Positions 35,524-42,475 of a DNA stretch of 48,298 bases are shown here, piece by piece (the stretch's first letter is position 1; each line of letters starts with the position of its first letter). The notes below the pieces were generated by a model. The model saw only the letters and a program-made list of their open reading frames with translations. It did not search any database and was not told where the DNA came from. A program made the position numbers and the translations under genes. The stretch covers positions 1 to 48,298 of the forward strand of contig JAJFUB010000068.1 of the NCBI GenBank assembly GCA_021372615.1, in the 5' to 3' direction. The stretch comes from a bacterium (lineage in GTDB: Bacteria > Armatimonadota > Zipacnadia > Zipacnadales > UBA11051).

Positions 35524-36327
35524 CTACCCTCCGCCCGGGGCCGGGGCCGTCGGGGCCGCCGGGCCGGGCGCTACCGGCGCCGGGGTCGGCCCGGGCGCAG
35601 GCGTCGCGCCCGGCTGGGTGCGCAGCTCCGGGTAGATCGGCTGGTTCAGCTTCACGCTGTCCCGGTAGCGCTTCAGGTCCTGCAGCAGGTTCTCCATCCG
35701 CACGATAAGCTGATCGAGCGTGCTTTCACCGGCGATGGCCTCGTAGCACTCCACCTCGCCGAGCTGTACCCAGCGGTCCGAGCCCCAGTTCGTCGTGATG
35801 ACCAGCCGCAGGTAGCGGGCCTCGACCGGGATGAAGTCGAAGGTCTGCTTGAGGGGCTTGTTCACCAGTTGCCCGCGCTTCACCAGGGCCCACGGGCCGT
35901 CCGCAGTCGTCGCGGATACGTACACCTCGAAGTCCCGCGCCCCACGGCCGATGAGTGTGGACTCCGTCGTGGTCGGGTCAATGACCACGCGGCTGATCAG
36001 ACGGGTCTGCACCGGGTCGCCCGGCAGCGCGAACACGATCCACTGCGGATTCGTGGGGCTGGGCGGCATGTTGGAGGACCAGCCGTGCGAGTTGGCCGGC
36101 CGGTAGGTGCCGGTGACATACTGGCCGTCAATCAGGTTGGTGACCTGCCACTGGGGCACCGGCTGCTTGAACTCGTCCACCATCTGGCTGGAGAAAGACA
36201 CGATCTTGCCGCCGTTGGCGGCCAGCAGCAGGTCGGTGCTGCCGGCCGTGAAGCCGATATCATTCTGCGCCCAGGCAGCGGCGCACGACACCAGCAGCAG
36301 GGCAATCACGAACTGAGTGCGAGGCAT
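35524..36327 (-). CDS. Secreted discoidin (F5/8 type C)-like protein
   Basis: A 267-residue exported protein with a signal peptide (IALLLVSCAAAWAQ, to ~21). Residues ~25-200 resemble a galactose-binding-like/F5-8 type C sandwich: NLIDGQYVTG, WIVFALPG, ISRVVIDP, DFEVYVSATTADGPW, EARYLRLVITTNWGSDRWVQLGEVECYE. This fold binds sugars or surfaces. Then come a helical segment (LDQLIVRMENLLQDLKRYRDSV) and a Pro/Ala-rich tail. It lies 51 bases downstream of pknB on the same strand and may be the last gene of that operon. Confidence 0.82.
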   Translation of the reverse strand: MPRTQFVIALLLVSCAAAWAQNDIGFTAGSTDLLLAANGGKIVSFSSQMVDEFKQPVPQWQVTNLIDGQYVTGTYRPANSHGWSSNMPPSPTNPQWIVFALPGDPVQTRLISRVVIDPTTTESTLIGRGARDFEVYVSATTADGPWALVKRGQLVNKPLKQTFDFIPVEARYLRLVITTNWGSDRWVQLGEVECYEAIAGESTLDQLIVRMENLLQDLKRYRDSVKLNQPIYPELRTQPGATPAPGPTPAPVAPGPAAPTAPAPGGG

Positions 36328-36378: not shown

Positions 36379-38226
36379 TTACGGTTGGGCGGCCAGGGGG
36401 TACTGCTCGGCGAACACGACCTTGTCGTTGTGGTACACCTCGATGGTCGCATTGCCGGTTAGGATGACATCCCACTCGCGCGAGGCGCCCGGATCGAGGC
36501 TACCGCCGCCAACCTCTACGCCCCGCCCGGTGTCGTCGCTCTTGACGATCTGGATCTTCTGCCCCCGCTGCTTGCCTGTCGCGGAGACCTTGACGGTGAA
36601 CTTGCGCTCCTTGTCGGTGGCTGCGCGATAGCTGTCGTCCTGCCGGATCTCCACCACGGGGTCCTCGGCCAACTCGCCGCCGTTCTCGGGCTCGGTCGTC
36701 GTCTCGGGGGTCTTCTCCGGGCCGCGGCTGACGCTGACTTCCACCGCCGTGCCCGACTCCACCTTGGTGCCGGCCGGGATCGCCTGGCTGGTAATCTGCC
36801 CCTGAGGGATCTCGTCGTGGTAGACCTCAGTGATCTCCCCGACCTGCAGCCCGCCCTCCTGGAGACGCTCGGTCGCCTCGGCCACGGTTCGCCGGCGCAC
36901 GTCCGGCACCGTGACGGTTCGTTTGCCACGTCGGATCACTAGGTTAACCTGGGTCTCGGCCTCAACGGACTCGCCGATGTCGGGCACCTGTCGCATGACG
37001 GTACCCTCCAGCGAGGCGTCGTCCTCCTCGTAGGTTACCTTCCCCACCTTCAGGCCGGCGCCCTCGATGACGGTGGTGGCGTCCGCCAGCGTCATTCCTT
37101 TGACAGACGGAACCTGCACTTTCCTCGGCGTCTGTCCCGGATAGAACGCGGCCTTGACCAGCAGGATCACACCGATCAGCGCAATGACCCCCACGACGAC
37201 GGCCAGGGCCGTGGCCGCGGCCACGCTGCCCGGACTACGTTCCGGGGCCCGGCTGGGGCCATTCATGCGGGTCGCCGAGCGCACCGGCGCGGGCGCGGGA
37301 GTGACGGACTCAGCCGCCACGGGCGGGCCGACCGGTATCTGGGTCGGGCTCAGGCGCATGGTTGCCTCGTCGCCGCCGGGGGTCAGCACCCCGGTGCGGT
37401 CCAACTCCACCCCGTCGGCGATCTTCTCCAGGTCCACGAGCATCTCGTCGGCGCCGCGGTAGCGCCGGGTCAGCTCGCGAGCCGTGGCCTTGTTGATGAC
37501 ATACTCGGCCGAGGGCGTGACATTGGGGTTGAGCGCGCGCAGGGCCGGGGGACGCTCCCGCACGTGCCGGGCCGCGATCTCGGCGGGGCTGGCGCCTCCG
37601 AACGGCGGGCGGCCGGTGATGCACTCGAACATCACCACCCCCAGCGAGTAGATGTCCGACTGCGCCGTGGCCGGCGCGCCCTGGGCTTGCTCGGGTGAGA
37701 TGTAGTACGCCGTGCCCAGCACCAGACCCGAGTCGGTCAGGCCGCCCTCGCCCACGGCCGCCGCGATGCCGAAGTCCGACAGCTTCACCCGGCCGTCGTC
37801 GGTAAACAGGATGTTGTGGGGCTTGACGTCGCGGTGTACCAGGCCCTGCTTGTGGGCATACGCCAGCGCGCGGGCGCACTGGATGCTGACCTCCAGGACC
37901 TTGCGCTGCGGCAGCGGCGCATACTCCTTGATGATGCGCTTGAGGTCCGGCTCGGGCAGGTACTCCATCACGATGTAGTACGTCTCCCCGTCCACGCCGG
38001 TGTCGTAGATGGAGACGATGTTGGGATGGTTGAGCTTGGCCGCCGCATGGGCCTCGCGGCGGAAGCGGGCCAGCACTTCGGGGTGCTCGGCCATCTCGGG
38101 GCGCAGGATCTTCACGGCCACCGGGCGCTCCAGCACCGTGTCCAGGGCCTTGTAGACCGTGGCCACGCCGCCCTCACCGATTAGCTCGTCGAGGCGATAG
38201 CGTCCGGCGATCAGAGAACCGACCAT
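36379..38226 (-). CDS. pknB: Transmembrane Ser/Thr protein kinase with PASTA domains (PknB/PrkC type)
   Basis: A 615-residue Hanks-type kinase. In the kinase domain, the Gly loop GEGGVATVY is at 17-25, with Lys39, Glu58, HRDVKPHN (Asp133), DFG (Asp151) and SPEQ at 177-180. A juxtamembrane region rich in Pro/Ala leads to a membrane helix at ~338-358 (ALAVVVGVIALIGVILLVKA). Two PASTA domains (~370-434 and ~437-502) should bind muropeptides or lipid II outside. A final ~95-residue domain (VVEIRQDD...IEVYHNDKVVFAEQY) looks like the Ig-like cap of PrkC. It is the last kinase-cluster gene and should phosphorylate the FHA partners and cell-wall enzymes upstream. Confidence 0.96.
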   Translation of the reverse strand: MVGSLIAGRYRLDELIGEGGVATVYKALDTVLERPVAVKILRPEMAEHPEVLARFRREAHAAAKLNHPNIVSIYDTGVDGETYYIVMEYLPEPDLKRIIKEYAPLPQRKVLEVSIQCARALAYAHKQGLVHRDVKPHNILFTDDGRVKLSDFGIAAAVGEGGLTDSGLVLGTAYYISPEQAQGAPATAQSDIYSLGVVMFECITGRPPFGGASPAEIAARHVRERPPALRALNPNVTPSAEYVINKATARELTRRYRGADEMLVDLEKIADGVELDRTGVLTPGGDEATMRLSPTQIPVGPPVAAESVTPAPAPVRSATRMNGPSRAPERSPGSVAAATALAVVVGVIALIGVILLVKAAFYPGQTPRKVQVPSVKGMTLADATTVIEGAGLKVGKVTYEEDDASLEGTVMRQVPDIGESVEAETQVNLVIRRGKRTVTVPDVRRRTVAEATERLQEGGLQVGEITEVYHDEIPQGQITSQAIPAGTKVESGTAVEVSVSRGPEKTPETTTEPENGGELAEDPVVEIRQDDSYRAATDKERKFTVKVSATGKQRGQKIQIVKSDDTGRGVEVGGGSLDPGASREWDVILTGNATIEVYHNDKVVFAEQYPLAAQP

Positions 38227-38334
38227 GCTTGATTCACCACCTTCGCCGTCCGTGTCGGGTGCGGCTCAGTGTCAGTGTGTGCGATGGAGACTGCGATCAT
38301 GGCAGCGACACACGGCCTGTCGCCGGGGCTGGTG

Positions 38335-39735
38335 TCAGCGGGCACGCTCGAGCAGCAGCTCCAGCACGCGCCGCGCGATCGGCGCCGCGGAGCCCGAGCC
38401 GCTGCCACCACCCTCCACGATGACGGTAACGACCACCCGGGGGTTCTCCGCCGGGGCGAAACACGTGAACCAGGCGTGGGGCGGGCCCTGGGGGTTCTCG
38501 GCCGATCCCGTCTTGCCCGCCACGGTCGTCATGTCGAGCGCCGCCGACCGCCCGGTGCCCTTCTCCACCACGTCCACCATCATCTGCGTGACCTGCGCGG
38601 CGGTGGCGGCAGTGACGCCCTGGCCCAGGTCCTTGGCCTTCCCCCGCTCCAGTATCCGGCCCTGCGGCGTGCGGACCTCGGCGAGCAGGTAGGGCTGCAG
38701 CACATGGCCCTTGTTCGCGATGGTGGCCGTCAGGCGCGCGATCTGCAGCGGCGACAGCAGCGTCGCGCCCTGGCCGAAGGAGGCCTCGCTCAGCGCCACC
38801 TCGCCCTTGAAGCCCCGGAAATCATACAGACGCCCGCGGGAGCTGGGCAGCGCCAGGTCCGCCTCGTCCAGCAGGTGCATCTGCTTGGCGTACTGGATGA
38901 ACCCGTCAATCCCGATCCGCTGTCCCAGCTTGGCGAAGGCGATGTTGCACGAGTCCCACATCGCCTTGTCCAGATCGAGCTTGCCGTGCCCGCCGCCAAT
39001 GCGGCAGACGACCTTGGCCCGGGCGATACGCTCGGTGCCGCCGCAGGTGAACGTCGTCTCCGGTGTCGCCACGCCCAGGTCCAGGGCCGCGGCGGCGGTG
39101 AAGATCTTGAAGACCGAGCCTGGCGCATACAGCCCCTGGATGGCCCGGTCCAGGTGTGGCGAACCCGGGTCGAACCGGAAGAGGTTGAACTCCTCGATGT
39201 TGGACATGACCCGTACCGGGTCGAACGAAGGCGTGCTCGCCAGCGTCAGGACTGCGCCAGTGCGCGGGTCCAGCGCCACAACGGCCCCGCGCCGCCCGCC
39301 CAGCTCCTGCATCGCCAACTCCTGTGCCGCGGCGTTGACGGTCAGGATGATGTCATTGCCCGCCGGCTCGCCGCGCAGCAGGTCCTCCCAGGGGCTGGAG
39401 TACGTGCCCAGGCCGAACAACGGATCGCGCAGGCCCTTCTGCAGCCCTGTCTGGGCGTTGTAGCCAGTGAGGTGGGCGAAGTCCTGGCCCTCCGGGTAGG
39501 TAGACTTCCACCGTGCACCCTCACGCTCACGCCCCAGGATCGGCACACCGTCGGACGTGTACAGCCGGCCGGGCTCGACCCGTTGGGTCGCCTGCACCTG
39601 GCGCGGATTGTTCGGGTTGGCGTTCAGGCGGTCGGCCACGATGACCTGCCACCAGCTCAGCAGCAGGATGATCGCCGCGAACCCCACGAGGGTCAGGCGC
39701 ATCAGGCCCCGGATCGGAGAGCGGAAGTCAGCCAC
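38335..39735 (-). CDS. pbpA: Class B penicillin-binding protein (PbpA-like transpeptidase)
   Basis: A 466-residue D,D-transpeptidase that cross-links peptidoglycan. One N-terminal anchor (LMRLTLVGFAAIILLLSWW, ~11-29) precedes a pedestal region and the catalytic domain with Ser207-x-x-Lys210 (APGSVFK), Ser262-x-Asn264 (WDSCN) and Lys408-Thr-Gly (AGKTGS). The length matches mycobacterial PbpA (~490) better than longer FtsI/SpoVD proteins. The GTG start lies six bases after GGAGGAGG and overlaps the end of the SEDS gene by eight bases, showing translational coupling with its likely glycosyltransferase partner. Confidence 0.95.
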   Translation of the reverse strand: MADFRSPIRGLMRLTLVGFAAIILLLSWWQVIVADRLNANPNNPRQVQATQRVEPGRLYTSDGVPILGREREGARWKSTYPEGQDFAHLTGYNAQTGLQKGLRDPLFGLGTYSSPWEDLLRGEPAGNDIILTVNAAAQELAMQELGGRRGAVVALDPRTGAVLTLASTPSFDPVRVMSNIEEFNLFRFDPGSPHLDRAIQGLYAPGSVFKIFTAAAALDLGVATPETTFTCGGTERIARAKVVCRIGGGHGKLDLDKAMWDSCNIAFAKLGQRIGIDGFIQYAKQMHLLDEADLALPSSRGRLYDFRGFKGEVALSEASFGQGATLLSPLQIARLTATIANKGHVLQPYLLAEVRTPQGRILERGKAKDLGQGVTAATAAQVTQMMVDVVEKGTGRSAALDMTTVAGKTGSAENPQGPPHAWFTCFAPAENPRVVVTVIVEGGGSGSGSAAPIARRVLELLLERAR

Positions 39736-40999
39736 GGTCGGCCTCCTCCCGCGAGATCGCCAGCAATAGCCCCAGCGCGATGAAGTTGATCGCCACGGAC
39801 GTGCCGCCGTAGCTGACAAAGGGCATGGTGATGCCCGTCAGCGGGATCAGGCGCAGCGTGCCGCCGGCGATGATCAGCGTTTGCAGGGCGAACACGACCG
39901 CCAGACACGTCGCCAGCAACATCCCGAACTGGTGGCGCGACCGCAGGCCGATGGTGAAGCTGCGGATCGCCACCAGCACATACACCAGCAGCAGCGCCAG
40001 GGCCCCCAGCAGCCCCATCTCCTCGCCAACGACCGGGAAGATCATGTCGGTGGCGGCCTCGGGGATCAGTTCGGGATAGCCCCGGCCCAGCCCCTGGCCG
40101 CTCAGCCCGCCGGAGCCCAGCGCAAACAGCCCGTGCAGGATCTGGTAGCCCCGCCCGTCCGGGTCGGCCCACGGGTTGGTCCAGGCCTCGAAGCGGATAT
40201 GGATGGTCGAGTTGGCCGGTGAGGCGTAGTACGCGGCAGCCATGCCGCCCAGGAACAGCAGGCCGGCCAGCAGCGGATAGGTCTTGCGGCCGGTGGCGAC
40301 ATAGCTGATGGCCACGAAAAGGCCAAAGAACAGGACTGCCGCGCCGAAGTCATGCTGCACAACGAACGTGGCCAGGAAGAACACGACCACGAGCAGCAGG
40401 GGGCCCATGTACTTAAGGGCCGGCAGCGTGAACCGCCCTGCCTGCCGCACCTGGGTCTGGATCATCTCGCCCTTGGCCGCCACGTAGCCCGCCAGGAAGA
40501 TGCACATCAGGATTTTGGCGACTTCCGTGGGCTGGAAGACGAAGATGCCGGGCACCCCCAGCCACAGCCGGGCCCCGTTCTTCTCAATCCCGAAGACCAT
40601 GGTGACGATCAGCAGCGCCAGCGCCCCAATGCCCGCCAGGTACTTGTGCCGCGCCAGATCGCGCTCGTCATCTACCGCGAAGTATGTTCCCAGCATCAGC
40701 GCCAGCCCCAGCATCATCCACAGCACCTGCTTGGAGCCGAGGATCGGGTCTATGCGCCACAGGGCGATGATGCCCAGCCCGCACAGCGCGGACACCAGGG
40801 GCAAGAGCAGATGGTCGCGCCGGTCGCTCCCCACCCGCAGCAGCAGGCTCGCGAGGATGAAACCGCCGCTGACGGCCGCCATCCGCAGGGCTCGCAGCGG
40901 CGATTGGTGCAGGGCGGCGCACACGAGCGCCAGCCCCAGCGTCGAGATGATGGCGCTGAGGATGAGCAGAGTCAGTTCCAGACGGCGAGTGGCGGAAAT
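39728..40999 (-). CDS. rodA: SEDS peptidoglycan glycosyltransferase (RodA/FtsW)
   Basis: A polytopic enzyme of 423 residues with the proposed start, which polymerises lipid II. The SEDS signature is NPWADPDGRGYQILHGLFALGSGGLSGQGLG, with the catalytic Asp in the WADP element, and the family end motif LPLTGITMPFVSYGGTS is also present (here RLIPLTG...). Ten membrane helices are visible. The first ATG/GTG/TTG is a GTG at 40924, which would cut off the first helix. In-frame codons upstream read TRRLELTLLILSAIISTLGL, the normal RodA N-terminus, back to a TAA. The only well-placed start there is an ATT (40999-40997), six bases after GGGGAG. A rare ATT start is therefore inferred. Confidence 0.9.
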   Translation of the reverse strand: MSATRRLELTLLILSAIISTLGLALVCAALHQSPLRALRMAAVSGGFILASLLLRVGSDRRDHLLLPLVSALCGLGIIALWRIDPILGSKQVLWMMLGLALMLGTYFAVDDERDLARHKYLAGIGALALLIVTMVFGIEKNGARLWLGVPGIFVFQPTEVAKILMCIFLAGYVAAKGEMIQTQVRQAGRFTLPALKYMGPLLLVVVFFLATFVVQHDFGAAVLFFGLFVAISYVATGRKTYPLLAGLLFLGGMAAAYYASPANSTIHIRFEAWTNPWADPDGRGYQILHGLFALGSGGLSGQGLGRGYPELIPEAATDMIFPVVGEEMGLLGALALLLVYVLVAIRSFTIGLRSRHQFGMLLATCLAVVFALQTLIIAGGTLRLIPLTGITMPFVSYGGTSVAINFIALGLLLAISREEADRG

Positions 41000-41011
41000 C
41001 GTGGGCTCCCC

Positions 41012-41626
41012 TTAGCGGGCGCTGCGATACTCGAAACTGACGGTCCCGATGGCGATCTGGTCGCCGTTCCTGAGCACGATGTCCTCGGTGACGGGGCGGC
41101 CGTTGTGGAAGGTGCCGTTGGTGCTGTTGCGGTCGCGGAGGATCCGCTGGCCCTGCTGCAAGAAGATCATGGCGTGGTGCTGCGAGCAGAAGCGGTCGCT
41201 CACCACCAGCCCATTGTCCGGCGCGCGCCCGATGGTGACAGCCGCGGTCAGGCTCAGCACCTGCTCGGCCTGCAGGCCCGACTGGCCCGGGTCGCGGACC
41301 ACGAGGCTGGCCAGAGCCGGCGCGACGGCCGGGGCCCGCGCCGGGGTGCTGATGGGCGCCGCTGGAGCTGGTGTCGCGGCCACAGGCGCCGCAGGGGGCG
41401 CCGCGACGGGAGTCATCACCGGGGCGCTGGAGGCGACAGGGGCAGGCACTGCGCCGGCCCGCGCTGCCACCGTCGCCGGGGCTCTTGTCCCGGCCGCGAC
41501 CGGCGCGGCTCGCTCCGCCCGCATCTCCACCACCAGGGACCGGAAGGCCCAGTAGACGAAGTAGTACACCAGCCCCAGGAAGAGGTACCTGCCCAGCAGC
41601 ATGATGATCCCGAAGTAGGCGTCCAA
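41012..41626 (-). CDS. fhaB: FhaB-like membrane-anchored FHA-domain protein
   Basis: A 204-residue protein with an N-terminal membrane segment (IIMLLGRYLFLGLVYYFVYW, ~7-26). A long Ala/Pro linker (~40-105) leads to a C-terminal forkhead-associated domain (VTIGRAPDNGLVVSDRFCSQHHAMI...NSTNGTFHNGRPV), which binds phosphothreonine. The GR, S-x-H and NG residues of the phosphate pocket are intact. In actinobacteria FhaB (FipA) links PknB to the divisome. The TTG start is seven bases after GGGAGA. It lies 12 bases before the SEDS gene. Confidence 0.92.
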   Translation of the reverse strand: MDAYFGIIMLLGRYLFLGLVYYFVYWAFRSLVVEMRAERAAPVAAGTRAPATVAARAGAVPAPVASSAPVMTPVAAPPAAPVAATPAPAAPISTPARAPAVAPALASLVVRDPGQSGLQAEQVLSLTAAVTIGRAPDNGLVVSDRFCSQHHAMIFLQQGQRILRDRNSTNGTFHNGRPVTEDIVLRNGDQIAIGTVSFEYRSAR

Positions 41627-41653
41627 GGCGGGGTCTCCCAGGATGCGTAGCGA

Positions 41654-42307
41654 TCAGCGGTCGTGGAACCGCAGTTGGACGAAGCCGACTTCCACCAGGT
41701 CGCCTTCACGCAGGGGGGCGGCCTGCACCTGTTCGGCATTCACAAAGGTGCCGTTGGCGCTCCCCAGGTCGCGCAGCATGTACTGCACGCGCTCCCAGAC
41801 GATCTCGCAGTGTCGGCGTGACACGGCCCCCTCGCCGATGACGATATCGCAGTCATTGGCGCGGCCGATGACATTGCTCTCTCCCAGCGGGACCTGCCGC
41901 CCGACGTGGGGCACGCCTGCCTCAGCCGCCACATAGGCCGGCGGGCGCTCGCCAAACCCCGCCCGCACGCGCATCTCCCCCGCCGGAACGTCCTCCGCCA
42001 CACCGACCGTGAGAGCCAGGTACGGCCCCAGCGTGACGCGGGCCTCGGCGGCATACTCCTGCAGGTCGCCAGCCAGCTCGGCCTCGAGCGCCGGCCCGAC
42101 CGCCTCGATCTCCCGCACGTCTGCCAGGTTCAACTCCACCACGTAGCAGTTGGCGGCGAGAGCCCCGTCGGCAGTGCTGACGATCGAGCTTTCGAGCGCC
42201 TCGCGCAGGGGGGCCTTCAGTTCGGCAGGCTGGAGCTTCTGCGGGAACAGGCGACTGAAGGGCCTCTCGATGGCGGCTTGCAGGGCCTGTTCGACTTTGC
42301 GCAGCAC
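41654..42307 (-). CDS. fhaA: FhaA-like protein (DUF3662 + FHA)
   Basis: A 217-residue cytoplasmic protein with an N-terminal DUF3662/FhaA_N domain (~1-115: LRKVEQALQAAIERPFSRLF, LQPAELKAPLREALESS, NCYVVELNLADVREI). A C-terminal FHA domain (~137-213: NVIGRANDCDIVIGEGAVSRRHCEI...LGSANGTFVNAEQV) has all phosphothreonine-binding residues. FhaA of mycobacteria binds phosphorylated MviN/MurJ and controls septal and polar wall synthesis. The linker between domains is much shorter than in mycobacteria. The GTG start follows GAGGAG. It is the first gene of the cluster. Confidence 0.93.
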   Translation of the reverse strand: MLRKVEQALQAAIERPFSRLFPQKLQPAELKAPLREALESSIVSTADGALAANCYVVELNLADVREIEAVGPALEAELAGDLQEYAAEARVTLGPYLALTVGVAEDVPAGEMRVRAGFGERPPAYVAAEAGVPHVGRQVPLGESNVIGRANDCDIVIGEGAVSRRHCEIVWERVQYMLRDLGSANGTFVNAEQVQAAPLREGDLVEVGFVQLRFHDR

Positions 42308-42372
42308 GGGCAGGTTCTCCTCGGGCCGACCGGAACGAAAGCGACGCACACAGGGGGCTGCGGGCTGCAGGA

Positions 42373-42401
42373 AGTATAGCAGAATGCCCGCAGGGGGGCA
42401 A
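42373..42401 (-). promoter_or_regulatory. Sigma70-type promoter of the fhaA-fhaB-rodA-pbpA-pknB cluster
   Basis: On the minus strand TTGCCC and TATACT are spaced by 17 bases. Transcription would begin near 42366, about 60 bases before the fhaA GTG. Confidence 0.7.
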
Positions 42402-42431: not shown

Positions 42432-42475
42432 GGGTTCGTCCTCGAACCCACACGTGCGGGTTCGAGGACGAACCC
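42432..42475. repeat. Inverted pair of 18-bp hairpin units
   Basis: GGGTTCG-TCCT-CGAACCC (42432-42449) and its reverse complement (42458-42475) lie between two divergent promoters. Each unit is itself a hairpin, so two folding patterns compete. Confidence 0.8.

Follow-up and report, generated by a model that had tools for sequence, protein, structure and literature searches.

The stretch of DNA analyzed here (the window, 48,298 nucleotides) carries a cell-wall operon of the actinobacterial type, a kind that is already known. New is the state in which it is kept by the bacterial order of the window genome: the PASTA kinase is universal in this order whereas PP2C phosphatases occur in a minority of genomes, the T-x-T motif of the kinase activation loop is lost, and a gene for a discoidin-fold protein is located behind pknB. 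On balance we lean towards an ancient circuit which lost PstP and in which phosphatase-controlled switching of the activation loop was relaxed or abandoned.

The window corresponds to contig C68 of a MAG of 6.4 Mb in 171 contigs. The genome belongs to the Armatimonadota, in agreement with a first-pass annotation of this DNA, which had described the rest of the window as not actinobacterial. The order fhaA-fhaB-rodA-pbpA-pknB on a single strand proposed there was confirmed, with all five ORFs on the minus strand. The features are:

42373..42401, minus strand: promoter-like site upstream of FhaA (TTGCCC-17-TATACT, extended -10), a match to the consensus only
41654..42307, minus strand: FhaA, FhaA_N and C-terminal FHA domain; GTG start at 42307, ORF open upstream to 42499
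41012..41626, minus strand: FhaB-like protein, N-terminal TM segment, Ala/Pro-rich linker and FHA domain with conserved phosphothreonine-binding residues
39728..40999, minus strand: SEDS glycosyltransferase (RodA position), start ATT 40999 or GTG 40924
38335..39735, minus strand: class-B PBP (PbpA position), GTG start, motifs SVFK, SCN and KTG
36379..38226, minus strand: PASTA Ser/Thr kinase (PknB) with kinase domain, TM segment, two PASTA repeats and C-terminal beta domain
37729..37737, minus strand: activation-loop codons T164-D165-S166, equivalent to T171-x-T173 of M. tuberculosis PknB
35524..36327, minus strand: gene of a secreted F5/8C (discoidin/CBM32-fold) protein, 51 bases downstream of pknB

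The spacing described earlier was correct as well. Gaps of 27 and 12 bases separate fhaA from fhaB and fhaB from the SEDS gene, respectively, the SEDS and PBP genes overlap by 8 bases, and 108 bases lie between the PBP gene and pknB. The 12-base gap requires the ATT start at 40999, the earliest ATG, GTG or TTG being the GTG at 40924. For FhaA, the GTG at 42307 behind a GAGGAG ribosome-binding site is the more likely start; position 42401, where the first-pass annotation ended the cluster, is the edge of the promoter-like site (42401-42373). No terminator-like sites were found on the minus strand inside the cluster, which together with the spacing would be compatible with co-transcription. Between fhaA and a divergent TPR gene, GGGTTCGAGGACGAACCC is present as an inverted pair (42432-42475). 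Across the genome it occurs in 15 exact copies, several of them as close inverted pairs (reversed control: 0 copies), and it looks like a REP-like dispersed palindrome.

Domains were assigned from Pfam matches above the curated cut-offs. These were FhaA_N (E 6e-18) and FHA in FhaA, FHA in FhaB, FTSW_RODA_SPOVE in the SEDS protein (E 6e-71), Transpeptidase in the PBP (E 1e-56) and Pkinase (E 1e-51) with two PASTA in the kinase. The kinase also passes the NCBIfam equivalog PknB_PASTA_kin (NF033483) with 525 bits at a cut-off of 450. FhaB reached 82.8 bits against the FhaB/FipA equivalog NF049868 and thus stays below the cut-off of 125, its best match being full-length; by domain layout and synteny we refer to it as FhaB-like. 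Membership of the SEDS family is certain. The protein falls below the cut-offs of both RodA (TIGR02210: 200 bits vs 336.7) and FtsW (TIGR02614: 244 bits vs 337.5), and its putative subfamily is taken from synteny and the tree. The genome encodes three SEDS proteins including the operon copy, and the operon FhaA_N is its only one.

The gene downstream of pknB had been overlooked in the first-pass annotation. Its product matches Pfam F5_F8_type_C (PF00754) with 35.3 bits (gathering cut-off 28.2) and consists of a signal peptide, the F5/8C domain, a conserved C-terminal helix and a Pro-rich tail. The structure model (pLDDT 86) matches the CBM of a bacterial sialidase and CBM32/discoidin structures. 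Nearly all loci of the order with downstream sequence have a homologue directly behind pknB, in all six families, and 26 residues of the alignment are invariant. At the same place in the actinobacterial operons and in those of the other Armatimonadota compared, no homologue was detected. The protein may be a glycan-binding partner of the PASTA kinase.

The phosphothreonine-binding residues of the FHA domain are kept in 18/18 FhaA proteins and, as judged by eye from the alignment, in almost all FhaB proteins. The model of the PknB ectodomain (pLDDT 92) shows the two PASTA repeats and the C-terminal beta domain and is nearest to S. aureus PrkC (3py9). Elsewhere in the genome, a Ser/Thr kinase of 783 aa carries a C-terminal PQQ beta-propeller (contig C44, L185:5769-8117), and kinases with frames of 750-830 aa recur across many genomes of the order. 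A stand-alone TM and PASTA protein with no kinase was also present (contig C17, L186:5816-6646); PASTA-only matches resembling it occur in many genomes of the order.

Threonines T171 and T173 of M. tuberculosis PknB are needed for full activity (PMC6428115). We compared this part of the loop in 38 kinases of the order with 70 others, 66 from outside the phylum and 4 from other Armatimonadota. Both threonines (T-x-T) were found in 0/38 kinases of the order vs 36/66 and 4/4, respectively. Neither site carried Thr in 16 of the 38 and neither carried Ser or Thr in 8, while an acidic residue occupied the loop sites in 21; at least one loop Thr was kept in 66/66 kinases outside the phylum and in 4/4 of other Armatimonadota. 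Many loops of the order keep one Thr, and that of the window kinase reads T-D-S, with T164 and S166 kept. In RD kinases the HRD arginine contacts the loop phosphate. This arginine is lost in 8/38 kinases of the order (Gly 7, His 1), belonging to two lineages, and is present in the window kinase as well as in 70/70 outside the order. The catalytic Lys, the HRD Asp, the Asn and the DFG Asp are intact in 38/38.

When a kinase tree was calculated from an alignment stripped of the loop, the five changes that remove both Thr mapped exclusively to the order. Its branches make up 27.6% of the total length of the tree, and the probability of such a distribution by chance is about 0.002, a post hoc value. 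T-x-T was also lost with PstP present, as T-x-D in Collinsella-type loci and A-x-T in Curtobacterium, so that a lost motif taken by itself does not point specifically to a missing PstP. Among members of the order, loop state did not correlate with genome-wide presence of PP2C, the change being equally strong in PP2C-positive and PP2C-negative genomes. Tests on independent pairs are without power, since the loss of the operon PstP is essentially one event besides g139, which keeps T-x-T and has a PP2C elsewhere.

Relatives of the operon were found by scanning genome contigs with the SEDS alignment, and trees were calculated from SEDS alone and from SEDS, PBP and kinase concatenated, with the deep rooting not settled. 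FhaA_N is present in 85/291 genomes of the phylum. Neither a PP2C nor a second kinase was found within the window operon, and the order SEDS-PBP-PknB is invariant across the 38 operon loci of the order, with PP2C in 0/38, so the earlier claim that PstP is lacking stands. That pknA is missing was true only insofar as none is present. Since many actinobacterial loci lack it at this place, with a single kinase at the pknA/pknB position in several (e.g. L118, L152 and L157), its absence is unremarkable and uninformative; pknA is not a defining member of the operon and its loss was rejected. In Coriobacteriia, an extra kinase lies upstream of fhaA.

Other Armatimonadota loci (L041/L099, L057, L196 and L198) carry a PP2C between fhaB and SEDS as in Actinobacteria, and four genomes of the phylum (G214, G215, G005 and G007) keep PP2C after FhaB. 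L099 is labelled Fimbriimonadaceae, and L100 (JACRKZ010000087.1) Armatimonadetes. The window's order forms one clade in the SEDS tree (support 99) and in the concatenated tree (support 100). Because some other Armatimonadota keep the exact order FhaA-FhaB-PP2C-SEDS-PBP-PknB, and the order and the Actinobacteria form separate clades, pstP was probably lost from the operon in the ancestor of the order. A second loss is probable in G216/G217, of the same family as G214/G215, where the operon lacks PP2C and a PP2C is present elsewhere in the genome.

It is hardly credible that the operon was acquired horizontally, without pstP, from an actinobacterium. Outside the phylum, the most closely related SEDS proteins come mainly from Actinomycetota, and the majority of the complete loci among these read fhaA-fhaB-PP2C-SEDS-PBP-PASTA kinase. 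However, the actinobacterial rows of the concatenated tree form one clade (support 99) with the order outside, the AU test does not reject one clade of all Armatimonadota (p-AU 0.40), and the full six-gene order is found in other Armatimonadota. Furthermore, the sampled families f1, f2, f3, f4 and f6 were recovered as clades, which is compatible with vertical descent. Between an ancient circuit and a transferred module, both considered in the first-pass annotation, old age is thus upheld, and a recent actinobacterial import was rejected on the SEDS and concatenated trees. Unrelated origins had been considered too; the trees instead gave common descent of the SEDS, PBP and kinase genes, with no nesting. 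Two other arrangements were observed. L174 (JAIORV010000091.1, labelled Candidatus Eremiobacterota) has FHA-SEDS-PBP-PASTA kinase with no PP2C or FhaA nearby; its kinase keeps T-x-T, and four PP2Cs lie elsewhere in the genome. In other Armatimonadota families (L035, L040, L042, L044, L047-L050 and L053), an FhaA with two FHA domains is followed by PP2C and a kinase without PASTA, the module thus being rearranged in another way.

The phosphatase census covered 41 genomes of the order, all draft MAGs, and 250 genomes of the rest of the phylum. A PASTA kinase was found in 41/41 (36 over the cut-off), whereas the PP2C_2 profile matched in 17/41. SpoIIE-domain ORFs account for the matches in G255 and G264 as well as for one of two in G256, and after removal of such cross-hits a PrpC/PstP-type PP2C is present in about 15/41 genomes. 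By profile search, no PP2C was detectable in 26/41; in the rest of the phylum it is present in 227/250. It is very improbable that PP2C only seems absent because the genomes are draft MAGs or the profiles too insensitive. The genomes are fragmented and certain contigs end near the operon, but the same genomes yield the PASTA kinase and a SpoIIE-type PPM protein in 41/41 each, and the operon itself is intact and free of PP2C. In addition, a second, independent profile agrees on the clear PP2Cs, with G258 (E 7.5e-4) as the sole extra match. Among the 19 high-quality genomes (at least 90% complete, at most 5% contaminated), PP2C is present in 8 and lacking in 11, the latter in related groups.

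A rather unlikely, though more substantial, alternative is that the usual logic persists with a phosphatase acting in trans, PknB being reset by a relocated PstP or by another PPM enzyme, either the SpoIIE-type protein or the PP2C of this genome. The genome-wide search proposed in the first-pass annotation returned a single PP2C, outside the cell-wall operon, in an island on contig C13 (119-158 kb; L054, L187 and L188) together with FHA proteins and nine Ser/Thr kinases. The annotation had regarded a pstP-like PP2C strongly linked to another FHA/SEDS cluster as evidence against its reading; the C13 gene answers to this description in part, but in 26 genomes of the order no PP2C was detectable. 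The C13 PP2C groups, with weak support, with the other PP2Cs of the order and not with operon PstPs, and its identity as a relocated PstP was not supported. An FHA-ABC2 transporter and an FHA-M48 peptidase are located in the same island, and some of its kinases have PASTA repeats. Of the PPM family, the SpoIIE-type protein is the one universal member found that could serve as reset enzyme; it may reset the circuit, and the copy in the window genome has an N-terminal membrane region. Its gene, however, adjoins lexA and pcm and no kinase genes. Moreover, a phosphatase in trans leaves the erosion of the T-loop and of the HRD arginine unexplained.

Loss of PstP with relaxed loop switching would fit these data as follows. 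An ancient FhaA-FhaB-PstP-SEDS-PBP-PASTA kinase operon would have been common to Actinobacteria and Armatimonadota; the ancestor of the order would then have lost pstP, a well supported step, and the secreted discoidin/CBM32-fold gene would have been added downstream of pknB, where its conservation is observed and its function predicted. Because catalytic and binding residues are intact, the kinase presumably remains a writer, and the FHA proteins readers, of phosphothreonine. Since T171-x-T173 is gone order-wide, with acidic residues often in its place, and the HRD arginine is missing from two lineages, the kinase may be independent of reversible double phosphorylation of the loop. Its activity would be set mainly by extracytoplasmic input through the PASTA and beta domains, perhaps with the secreted lectin-like protein. 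Phosphate marks might disappear as the proteins are diluted and turned over, or the universal SpoIIE-type phosphatase might take them off, and in the minority of species with PP2C this enzyme would mainly serve other kinase/FHA loci. More tentatively, and short of regarding it as probable, we suggest an order-wide circuit without any dedicated phosphatase, in which the kinase is constitutive or purely ligand-gated (acidic loop, non-RD sublineages), growth and turnover alone erase the marks and the lectin-like partner is the input.

All Actinobacteria and Firmicutes have been described as conserving the link of pstP and pknB, with the loop phosphothreonine treated as rapidly erased by the phosphatase (PMC6554272). 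Knockdown of the pstP operon is lethal in M. smegmatis, hyperphosphorylation of the PknB loop being one suggested cause (PMC6554272), and cognate phosphatases are considered necessary for quenching such signals (PMC6213207). A full-text literature search on Armatimonadota found no paper on this operon. As the phosphatase gene was dropped and the phosphorylation site of the kinase decayed, the circuit of the order is probably of different logic. With the activation loop itself changed, the question how the circuit is reset can be put more precisely. An order in which kinase and readers persist without the eraser serves as a natural experiment for phosphatase essentiality in other bacteria, and predicts that PstP should become less necessary once the loop is altered.

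Compared with known systems, the window operon agrees with the actinobacterial fhaA-fhaB-pstP-rodA-pbpA-(pknA)-pknB cluster, Rv0020c-Rv0014c of M. tuberculosis, in gene set, order, strand, domain architecture, PASTA ectodomain and FHA readers. It differs from that cluster by the absence of pstP and pknA, the lost T-loop motif and the added secreted discoidin-fold gene downstream of pknB. L041/L099 (JADZEX010000010.1), L196, L198 and L057 share phylum and genes with the window operon but retain the PP2C between fhaB and SEDS; the kinases of L041 and L196 retain T-x-T, and the downstream F5/8C gene was not detected in these two loci. With the PrpC-PrkC and Stp-Stk pairs of Firmicutes the PASTA kinase is in common, whereas there the PP2C is always kinase-linked (PMC6554272) and the window operon has none. 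Finally, the sixth-gene protein shares the Pfam match and the predicted fold with F5/8 type C/CBM32 discoidin domains; unlike these, it is stand-alone and secreted, carries a helix and a Pro-rich tail, and is fixed behind pknB in one order.
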